A stretch of DNA of 64,000 nucleotides, from positions 1 through 64,000 of the forward strand of contig NZ_WTVS01000014.1 of NCBI RefSeq assembly GCF_012911005.2. The letters run 5' to 3'. Positions 3,994 to 50,951 of the stretch are shown here, in pieces (the first letter of the stretch is position 1; every line of letters begins with the position of its first letter). The notes under the pieces were generated by a model that saw only the letters and a program-made list of their open reading frames with translations, searched no databases and was not told the origin of the DNA. A program made the position numbers and the translations under genes. Origin of the DNA: Aromatoleum toluolicum. Lineage in GTDB: Bacteria > Pseudomonadota > Gammaproteobacteria > Burkholderiales > Rhodocyclaceae.

Positions 3994-4473
3994 ATGGACC
4001 GCATCGATCTCAAGATTCTCGCCGAACTCCAGAAGGATGCCCGCCTGTCATTCGTCGAACTCGCGCGCCGCGTCGGCCTGAGCAAGACCCCATGCGCCGA
4101 GCGGGTGCGCAAGCTGGAGGAAGGCGGCGTCATCCGCGGCTACCACGCGGATCTCGACCCGGTCGCGATGGACCGCGCGCACGTGGTGATCGTGCAGGTG
4201 CTGCTGAACGGCACGACCGCGCACGAACTGAAGCTCTTCAACGAGGCCGTGCAGCGCATCCCCGAAATCCAGACCTGCCAGATGATCGCAGGCGATTTCG
4301 ACTACCTGCTGACGGTGCGCACGCGCGACATCCAGACCTATCGCAGCGTGCTGGGCGAGAAGATCTCGGAGCTGCCGTGCGTCAAGCAGACGCACACCTA
4401 TGTGGTGATGGAAGTCGTGAAGGACGAGAAGACGATAGAGATACGGACCGGCGAGGGACGACGGTCGGGGTGA
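3994..4473 (+). CDS. Lrp/AsnC-family transcriptional regulator, probable putA activator
   Basis: This 159-residue protein has an N-terminal winged helix-turn-helix (residues 1-60; LSFVELARRVGLSKTPCAER) and a C-terminal RAM ligand-binding domain (about 68-150). Length and layout are standard for the family. It starts at MDRIDLKILAEL, the usual beginning of this subgroup. The open frame extends upstream only because it runs antisense through putA. Divergent placement from putA is typical of PutR-like Lrp proteins that switch on proline catabolism when proline is present. The effector is inferred, since Lrp paralogues cannot be told apart by sequence alone. Confidence 0.92.
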   Translation: MDRIDLKILAELQKDARLSFVELARRVGLSKTPCAERVRKLEEGGVIRGYHADLDPVAMDRAHVVIVQVLLNGTTAHELKLFNEAVQRIPEIQTCQMIAGDFDYLLTVRTRDIQTYRSVLGEKISELPCVKQTHTYVVMEVVKDEKTIEIRTGEGRRSG

Positions 4474-4580
4474 GGAGATTCGGGCCAATCGGTCCTGGTC
4501 GAAGGCGAGGTCAGTGCCTGCGTGAACCACCCCGCGGTCCGGCGCCCTCTGCCGGGCAGGCGCTCGCGGCCTTCGGCTTC

Positions 4581-4680
4581 CCGGTCCGATACAGTCTGCG
4601 GGGGCGGCGACGCAAACTCGGGCGCGTTGCGCCCTCAGACATGCGTCGCCTTGTTTCCCCCGCAGACTGCATCGGACCGG
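4581..4680 (+). other. Structured hairpin 1 of the inverted-repeat element
   Basis: The basal stem pairs 4581-4604 with 4657-4680: 24 positions, one A-C mismatch. A bulge TTGTTT (4651-4656) follows on the 3' side, opposite a single C. The next stem is GGCGACGCA (4606-4614) with TGCGTCGCC (4642-4650). An internal loop has AACTC on one side and TCAGACA on the other. The apical stem is GGGCGC / GCGCCC with a 3-nt loop. Total length is 100 nt. It may act as DNA or RNA. Confidence 0.8.
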
Positions 4681-4814
4681 CGCTCACGGACAGCCCGGCA
4701 AAGGGCACCGGACCGCCTTGCATGTGAACGGCCGGGCGAATATCGAGGCCGATGGGATGGTACGAATTTCCGCCCGTGCGCGGGCCGGGGGCGGATCCGG
4801 GCTGTCCGCGAGTG

Positions 4815-4913
4815 CCGTCGCGGCGTGCGTTGCGGGAGGAAAAGGCGACGCATGTCTGAGCCGGCGCAGCCGGCGAGTTTGCGTCGCCGCTCCCGCAACG
4901 CACGCCGCGACGG
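4815..4913 (-). other. Structured hairpin 2 of the inverted-repeat element
   Basis: Read on the minus strand, it has the same architecture as hairpin 1. The basal stem is a perfect 24 bp (4815-4838 with 4890-4913). There is a 3'-side bulge TTTTC, an identical 9-bp GGCGACGCA stem and identical AACTC and TCAGACA internal-loop strands. The apical stem is GCCGGC with a TGC loop. Total length is 99 nt. The middle of the basal stem and the apical stem differ in sequence from hairpin 1 but remain fully paired. Confidence 0.8.
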
Positions 4914-4982
4914 GAAGCCGAAGGCCACGAGCGCCTGCCCGGAGCCGCCCCCGGACCGCGCGCGGGCGGGGCGGCGCCTTCC

Positions 4983-5984
4983 TCAGCCCTCGAGGTGGTA
5001 CTTCGTCACGCGCGCGACTTCCTCCGCCGAGCCCAGCACCACGGGCACGCGCTGGTGCAGCTTGGTCGGCTGCAGATCCATGATGCGCTCGCGCCCCGTC
5101 GTTGCCGCGCCGCCCGCCTGCTCGACGATCATCGCCATTGGATTGGCTTCGTACATCAGGCGCAGCTTGCCGCCCTTGTCGCGGCACTTCTCGTCCAGCG
5201 GATACATGAAGATGCCGCCGCGCGTCAGGATGCGATGCACGTCCGCGACCATCGAGGCGACCCAGCGCATGTTGAAATCCTTGCCGCGCGGGCCGGACTT
5301 GCCCGCCTGCAGTTCAGCGATGTAGCGCTGCACCGGCGGCTCCCAATAGCGCGCGTTCGACGCGTTGATCGCGAACTCCTGCGTCTCGTTCGGCACGGTC
5401 ATGAAGGGATGCGTGTAGATGAAGCTGCCCATCTCGCGGTCCAGCGTGAAGCCATGCACGCCATCGCCGACAGTCAGGATCAGCTGCGTCGACGGACCGT
5501 ACAGCGCATACCCGGCGGCGACCTGATCACGGCCTGGCTGCAGGAAATTCTGCTCCGTCGGCTCGCCGTCGCCCTCCGGATTGCGCAGCACCGAGAAGAT
5601 CGTGCCGACCGAGATGTTCACGTCGATGTTCGACGAACCGTCGAGCGGATCGAACAGCAGCAGGAAGCCGCCCTTCGGATAATCGAAGGGGATCTGATGC
5701 ACCTCCTCCACCTCCTCCGACGCCATCGCCGCGAGGTGGCCGCCCCACTCGTTCGCCTGCAGCAGGATCTCGTTCGCGATCACGTCCAGCTTCTTCTGGG
5801 CCTCGCCCTGCACGTTGTCGGTGCCGGCCTCGCCCAGCACGCCGGCCAGCGCGCCCTTCGACACATTGACGCTGATCGCCTTCACTGCGCGTGCGACGAC
5901 CTCGATCAGCAGGCGCAGCTCGGGCGTGGTCCGGCCCGCGCGCTGCTGCTCGATCAGGAACTGGGTTAGCGTGACGCGTCGCAT
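4983..5984 (-). CDS. fbp: Class I fructose-1,6-bisphosphatase
   Basis: The 333-residue enzyme hydrolyses fructose 1,6-bisphosphate to fructose 6-phosphate in gluconeogenesis. The class I metal-site motif [13 protein letters not shown] is present, together with the substrate-side [11 protein letters not shown] segment near residue 265. The start at [10 protein letters not shown] is supported by AAGGAG 8 nt upstream; longer in-frame extensions are not. It is divergent from the amino-acid dehydrogenase gene. The 500 bp downstream hold the structured repeat element, which could act on its mRNA 3' end. Confidence 0.96.
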
Positions 5985-16937: not shown

Positions 16938-16948
16938 CGCGAATCAGG

Positions 16949-17049
16949 GTGGCGAGCCCGACCCCCGGCACTTGCAGGGAACGGCTGTGGCTGCTGCCTT
17001 CCGGCCCTGACCAGATTCACCGCGCTGCAATGCGGGGAGACCCGCCACG
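16949..17049 (-). ncRNA. ffs: Signal recognition particle RNA, small bacterial type (4.5S)
   Basis: On the minus strand the conserved SRP domain IV core is readable: GGTCAGGGCCGGAAGGCAGC, containing the symmetric and asymmetric internal loops and the GGAA tetraloop that bind Ffh. The two ends (GTGGCG near 17048 and CGCCAC near 16950) pair to close the hairpin. Length is about 100 nt. A TACAAT -10 element (17056-17061, minus strand) sits about 7 nt upstream of the inferred 5' end. The RNA guides Ffh-bound ribosomes to the membrane. Confidence 0.9.

Positions 17050-50634: not shown

Positions 50635-50719
<85 letters not shown>

Positions 50720-50866: not shown

Positions 50867-50951
<85 letters not shown>

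Follow-up and report, generated by a model that had tools for sequence, protein, structure and literature searches.

The lrp-fbp gap of Aromatoleum toluolicum, flanked by the genes for an Lrp/AsnC-type regulator on one side and fructose-1,6-bisphosphatase on the other, contains two large palindromic modules pointing away from each other. There is about an even chance that the two modules, inverted relative to each other, are halves of a palindromic mobile element that is non-autonomous and in which folding of the outward strand is required. The gap lies in the 64,000-nt stretch of DNA analysed here as a whole (the window), and the argument draws on the architecture of the two modules, the spread of related copies, the covariation of their stems and the strand on which wobble pairs are tolerated.

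Two three-way-junction modules in the lrp-fbp gap

A sequence-only reading of this stretch had described two oppositely oriented hairpins in the gap, and their positions were confirmed, with basal arms at 4581-4604/4657-4680 and 4815-4838/4890-4913. Watson-Crick pairs occupied 23 of the 24 basal-stem positions in hairpin 1 (4581-4680) and all 24 in hairpin 2 (4815-4913). Folded as single strands, both strands of both hairpins reached z-scores of -10.3 to -11.8, and in each case 0 of 200 shuffles folded as well. The remaining elements described, namely the 9-bp stem (GGCGACGCA), the T-rich bulge, the loop strands AACTC / TCAGACA and an apical stem of 6 bp with its 3-nt loop, were all present. 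The accompanying claim that every difference between the two stems is compensated held in the basal stem for 11 of the 12 differences found in the 5' arm (24 positions), while the twelfth leaves an A·C mismatch in hairpin 1. The apical stems, said to be almost completely different, differ at three of six positions (GGGCGC vs. GCCGGC), so that this contrast had been overstated.

Although the two hairpins are real, each is only the inner arm of a larger three-way-junction module. The earlier reading had missed the variable outer stem that encloses each hairpin, as well as a third, small hairpin in each module. The modules point apart over 53 bp, and their junction strands are conserved. The features are as follows.

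4534-4716, folded strand minus: module 1 as a whole (outer variable stem, junction, long hairpin, small hairpin), from inverted arms, fold and model match
4534-4557 / 4693-4716, minus: module 1 outer stem arms, 92% complementary
4569-4577, minus: module 1 small third hairpin, GCCGAAGGC on the folded strand, from the predicted fold
4581-4680, minus: module 1 long hairpin, basal stem 4581-4604/4657-4680, bulge 4651-4656
4606-4614/4642-4650, minus: module 1 core stem, with loop strands 4615-4619 and 4635-4641
4620-4625/4629-4634, minus: module 1 apical stem
4717-4769, no strand: 53-bp centre between the divergent modules, in which no promoter-like or terminator-like site was found
4770-4969, folded strand plus: module 2 as a whole, from inverted arms, fold and model match
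4770-4802 / 4937-4969, plus: module 2 outer stem arms, 91% complementary
4815-4913, plus: module 2 long hairpin, basal stem 4815-4838/4890-4913, A-rich bulge 4839-4843
4844-4852/4880-4888, plus: module 2 core stem, with loop strands 4853-4859 and 4875-4879
4860-4865/4869-4874, plus: module 2 apical stem
4917-4925, plus: module 2 small third hairpin, GCCGAAGGC, from the predicted fold

Covariance-model matches were obtained at 4584-4672 on the minus strand (75.9 bits, module 1) and at 4823-4910 on the plus strand (72 bits, module 2). The three-way-junction folds, of 146-147 nt per module (4552-4698 minus and 4797-4942 plus), had z-scores of -8.9 and -9.0. The module core is GCATGTCTGAG..CGAGTTTGC, and a search pattern for the core matched twice in the 64 kb compared to 0 matches in 100 shuffles. 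On the folded strand the conserved core strands are GCAUGUCUGAG / CGAGUUUGC and the internal loop of the long hairpin reads UGUCUGA / GAGUU, which may be kink-turn-like (GCAUG-UCU-GA / GA-GUUUGC). In Bordetella genomosp. 4, a larger hairpin takes the place of the small third one.

A dispersed family

Further copies were found elsewhere, and the module is thus a dispersed family rather than a single inverted duplication. The core pattern detected six copies in the organism's own 6.16-Mb genome and was found in 11 of the 17 genomes available for the genus; a reversed control gave 0 matches. An order sample of 300 genomes contained the pattern in 4, and the covariance model, at E 1e-5, matched 11 of 369 genomes of a class sample, the own genome being included in both. 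Bordetella genomosp. 4 gave 22 model matches (E up to 0.1). As regards a replication-strand bias, copies occur in both orientations in complete genomes.

A scan of GTDB contigs with the core pattern returned at least 118 stretches. From the 118 listed, 39 were dropped by eye as chance, one of them (L096) perhaps wrongly, and the remaining 79 together with the window made up 80 sources for a model search, in which 104 matches were obtained among the GTDB matches listed and the window. Well-paired copies with long paired flanks were seen, among the matches listed, on contigs labelled Lachnospiraceae, Clostridium, Desulfobacteraceae, Patescibacteria, Peptococcaceae and others; these cross-phylum copies lie mostly on metagenome-assembled contigs, whose taxon labels can err.

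In viral contigs, 13 pattern matches were judged by eye to be chance. In a plasmid search, neither the window interval nor a Bordetella copy had a match, while loci L143 and L384 partially matched five and three records, respectively, over at most 23% of the query. Spurious reading frames from the core give the peptide SERSEF (L383 4176-5651 minus, with similar ORFs in L099 and L143), and copies may therefore be present, unrecognised, among the small hypothetical proteins of databases.

Compensated stems at orthologous positions

Copies at orthologous positions have covarying stems, which argues against the simple decay of one inverted duplication. The 50 copies of the genus fell into 12 groups by flanking sequence. 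At the same position in different species of the genus the stems differ and the differences are mostly compensated; the outer stems also vary with compensation. Four genomes of group g3 have the apical stem GGGCGC, and the fifth has GCCGGC instead. Across 36 chosen sequences, both-sided changes numbered 10 to 20 for each of the seven core-adjacent stem pairs, and cells that were broken or gapped numbered 2 to 12. The invariance of the loop is partly by construction, since the loop letters belonged to the search pattern, and loop variants (UUUGAG, UCAAACA) do exist.

Between alaS and pgm, the module was found in 9 of the 17 genomes of the genus, by eye mostly between the terminator-like hairpins of both genes. 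Genome G009 has this gap without the module although its AlaS fragment is 96% identical, and its module-free site may be a deletion. No target duplication was recognised at alaS-pgm. Decayed copies were also observed: L264 (about 957-1213 minus) lacks only the long hairpin, L265 and L266 are among the decayed loci, the pair at the lrp-fbp locus of L272 has collapsed, and other decayed copies are cut inside the long hairpin.

Wobble pairs identify the folded strand

From the covarying arms, the sequence-only reading had concluded that either the fold is selected or some process rewrites the two arms together, and it had offered a folded-DNA transposition substrate, a structured RNA and a mobile palindromic module as explanations. 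The present results support that interpretation, with corrections to the strand and to the size of the unit. The strand bias of wobble pairs favours selection for a fold, acting on one strand. For this analysis, arms were aligned with a score that treats every mismatch alike, in 49 of the 50 genus copies, one having been missed by the pattern. Read on the GCAUGUCUGAG..CGAGUUUGC strand, the middle stem contained 75 G·U vs. 4 A·C pairs; the other positions comprised 945 Watson-Crick pairs, 33 other mismatches and one gap. The outer stem gave 59 G·U vs. 14 A·C in the same copies. When identical events were counted once, 72 G·U to 11 A·C were obtained in 48 genus copies.

Outside the genus, distinct events numbered 31 G·U to 8 A·C in 41 copies, made up of 18 to 2 in Bordetella genomosp. 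4 (20 of its 22 matches), 11 to 3 in G074, 1 to 1 in G044 and 1 to 2 in other class genomes, with none of the G187 matches used. A set of 27 loci outside the genus gave 19 to 2; it overlaps with the former set, G074 and L174 being the same sequence. Six Aromatoleum/Azoarcus copies showed no bias (4 to 5), and an earlier, looser alignment had given 52 to 29 and 10 to 5. Co-inherited copies enter these counts, whose events are not phylogenetically independent.

A symmetric process should not give this G·U bias, and we infer that selection acts on one of the strands in its single-stranded form. The strand that the sequence-only reading had described is, according to the bias, the complement of the selected one. 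Most simply, the selected form is RNA, single-stranded DNA being the alternative. Covarying stems combined with one-strand wobble tolerance, as found here, are the marks of a structured RNA, although the small sets of 4 to 5, 1 to 1 and 1 to 2 run counter. No sigma-70 promoter-like site was found in 4440-5010, and no conserved promoter was visible beyond the outer stems in the aligned groups of the genus.

Divergent pairs as a repeated unit

Among the matches listed, all 22 pairs of opposite-strand neighbours within 2 kb diverge in the manner of the window's pair, as did 11 of 11 pairs when they were grouped by lineage by hand and three further genomes were added. One partner of the L184 pair is weak (33 bits). 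Two copies in G413, 2.8 kb apart and hence beyond the 2-kb limit, face each other. Same-direction tandems with a spacing of roughly 66 to 270 bp were observed in L193 (2480-2843 and 7115), G187 (C2:66899 and C23:170548) and G065 (C1:1764593).

At Zoogloea-type loci, pair and spacer recur together as a block, of which about 530 bp are common to loci with differing flanks; by eye, this block ends in long terminal inverted repeats. These loci combine two properties of a MITE, namely terminal inverted repeats and a unit repeated at unrelated sites. No target-site duplication was recognised in six aligned Zoogloea-type loci. The evidence for a repeated unit comes from such loci, the copies in the window's genus being mostly single halves. 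In G074, the divergent pairs L387, L390 and L391 have very long outer stems, with near 40 pairs in the predicted folds. Small hairpins (CTTTCTTG..CAAGAAAG) lie just outside many copies, within larger inverted ends (L117, L154, L384-L389, L143).

A nuclease or transposase gene associated with the module had been suggested as something to look for. The one type tested, Y1/RAYT (PF01797), was not associated: it was detected in 3 of 11 module-bearing genomes of the genus and in all six without the core pattern, one of which (G010) has one weak model match. Y1/RAYT is therefore no general requirement for the module in the Aromatoleum genus.

These observations bear on the possibility that the module is a single-stranded DNA substrate, which we hold to be somewhat unlikely but serious. 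At both ends of the paired unit, the strand that terminates there with its 3' end would then fold as DNA during transposition or replication and be recognised by a transposase or similar enzyme, and the wobble bias would reflect tolerance of G·T. In every divergent pair the folded strand has its 3' end outward, just as the transferred strand does in cut-and-paste transposition, and the mobile paired unit, the lack of a visible promoter and the random direction relative to genes all agree with such a substrate. G·U pairs in RNA are, however, stable, and more so than G·T pairs in DNA, so that a bias of 75 to 4 fits RNA better. Moreover, compensated change across species at fixed positions suggests that each copy is used in place, and the Y1 transposase, the usual enzyme for folded single-stranded DNA ends, is absent from 8 of the 11 module-bearing genus genomes.

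Genomic context of the copies

Neighbouring genes were assigned with a crude ORF caller for 62 of 82 matches, the 20 at contig edges being left out. Among the 62 placed copies, 21 lie in convergent gene gaps and 4 in divergent ones. Both neighbours are co-directional with the folded strand in 14 cases and both antisense in 23, so its orientation with respect to genes is not fixed. Scarcity in divergent gaps and the absence of a fixed direction are as expected of insertion tolerated away from promoters.

The counts of 21 copies in convergent and 4 in divergent gaps, and the location of the window and alaS-pgm copies in convergent gaps, would also suit an RNA that acts only in cis, as an insulator, terminator or stability element at gene ends, and is not mobile. 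We consider this quite improbable: the 14 co-directional vs. 23 antisense copies do not conform to it, the alaS-pgm copies lie by eye beyond ordinary terminator-like hairpins in most genomes, and paired units repeated at other sites are left unexplained.

Genes between the halves

The gene content between the halves is variable at one orthologous locus, where L132 has no ORF, L099 one and L143 two. The between-module spaces are the following.

L143 4750-6260: two ORFs
L099 6857-7892: one ORF
L132 3196-3474: no ORF

The L099 and L143 gaps have their left part and a right-hand terminator-like palindrome in common, and their ORFs differ. The common left part stops at ATATCACGTTG, where the two diverge; this point recalls an integron-type junction (G/TTRRRY). 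An attC-like half site is located between the two L143 ORFs. The ORFs of L143 and L099 had no Pfam match at E up to 0.1.

In L384, two widely spaced divergent modules enclose an AT-rich gap with a 261-aa ORF (1573-2355 plus), for which neither Pfam nor PADLOC gave a match at E up to 1, and NCBIfam gave one of 13 bits vs. a cut-off of 210. In the L184 gap the ORF encodes an EamA transporter, which could be nothing more than a neighbouring gene. Gene-bearing pairs are few, namely L143, L099 and L384, with L184 uncertain.

Comparison with known families

No match to an already named repeat family was found. Rfam 15 had none in the interval, other weak matches being far below threshold, and 18 loci gave only two tRNAs. 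Elsewhere in the window, the Rfam search identified a bacterial small SRP RNA (16948-17046 minus) and two equal-scoring tRNA matches (50635-50716 and 50867-50948 plus). In the open-access literature searched, with core strings and one peptide among the queries, no recognisable description of the module was encountered.

REP sequences are intergenic palindromes, and REPINs are inverted pairs of them that go with a RAYT transposase. The module is likewise intergenic, palindromic and found in inverted pairs, but it is far larger, its stems are not conserved, and in the genus it lacks an association with Y1 transposases. OLE, GOLLD and ROOL are large folded ("ornate") bacterial RNAs with conserved loops, a trait that the module has too; the module, however, is smaller, occurs in many copies that are often paired, and gave no match in Rfam. 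Judged by eye, the modules do not look like integron attC sites, which have the core boxes RYYYAAC / GTTRRRY and stand in cassette arrays; the conserved core of the module is GCAUGUCUGAG / CGAGUUUGC and its copies are dispersed. Different genes within the same flanking ends at one locus do resemble integron cassettes or the MITE-flanked integrons in the available part of PMC10969869.

According to the same review, bacterial MITEs are short, non-coding and intergenic, have terminal inverted repeats, are thought to be moved in trans, and have transcripts said to fold. The module pair is similarly short, non-coding and intergenic, with terminal inverted repeats. It differs from MITEs as presented there in that its halves are long three-way junctions with an invariant internal loop and stems that vary yet stay paired, and in having solo halves and genes between halves; the MITEs reviewed are AT-rich, while the modules in the window are GC-rich. 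The available portions of PMC2267715, PMC2864571, PMC6429828 and PMC10969869 contain no matching description.

In the open-access literature searched, the published element nearest to the module is BRE. As far as the accessible text of PMC3110155 goes, BRE is a roughly 90-bp GC-rich intergenic repeat of Betaproteobacteria that occurs solo or in tandem and is linked to an sRNA, with one copy in Azoarcus sp. EbN1, 8 to 22 per Bordetella genome, and copies beside lexA. The module shares with it the GC-rich intergenic nature, the solo or tandem occurrence and the range in Betaproteobacteria, an Azoarcus included, and these traits, like the inverted pairs of REPINs, could be cited for membership in a family that already has a name, be it the BRE of Bordetella or the REP/REPIN elements and their RAYT transposase. 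Such an identity is nevertheless very improbable. Eight Bordetella-genus genomes other than genomosp. 4 had 0 or 1 model match each (1 in three of the eight), compared to the 8 to 22 BREs reported, and the core was not seen in eight of nine regions downstream of lexA. The identity with BRE is unsupported on account of these eight genomes; the module is also larger than about 90 bp, the comparison being with the description of BRE in that text and not with its letters. The distribution of Y1 (3 of 11 bearing vs. 6 of 6 element-free genomes) and the lack of an Rfam match further speak against a named family.

Finally, template switching at quasi-palindromes, in which one arm is rewritten from the other and no fold is selected, would account for arms that always match and long stems that are nearly perfect, but it is scarcely credible, being symmetric and predicting equal G·T and A·C left-overs where 75 to 4 and 18 to 2 were seen, and given that the loop strands, which do not belong to the arms, are conserved.

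Proposed mechanism and implications

In the reading that we favour, the element in the window would consist of the two modules and the 53-bp centre, with no gene inside, and the fold of the strand reading outward from the centre would be maintained. That strand would be an outward transcript, bound as RNA at the UGUCUGA / GAGUU internal loop by a protein, and the stems would serve as spacers. Pairs would be moved by a transposase, and solo copies would be leftover halves, kept because the RNA is useful. Among the points against this reading, the fold of a mobile element need not persist for as long as the orthologous positions suggest, and same-direction tandems occur.

The copies can be classed with the palindromic repeats of MITE-like kind, though there is a genuine possibility that they are more than that. 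They might form a new category of mobile element across several phyla, with large structured RNAs, read outward, as its ends. Recognition would then go by the fold and not by the stem sequence, so that the ends could diverge almost limitlessly; genes between them would be swapped like cassettes, and leftover ends would live on as functional RNAs. This wider proposal is unlikely, and we offer it as speculation.

The family combines a conserved internal loop, stems that are almost free to change yet compensated, and an identifiable folded strand, and seems undescribed in the open-access literature searched. Among the matches listed, its copies span Betaproteobacteria to contigs of Bacillota and Patescibacteria. 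With this family one can test what it is that reads a fold instead of a sequence, and whether selection acts on RNA or on single-stranded DNA. Pairs whose gene content differs between relatives at one locus are a hint of a system that carries genes outside the classical transposons.
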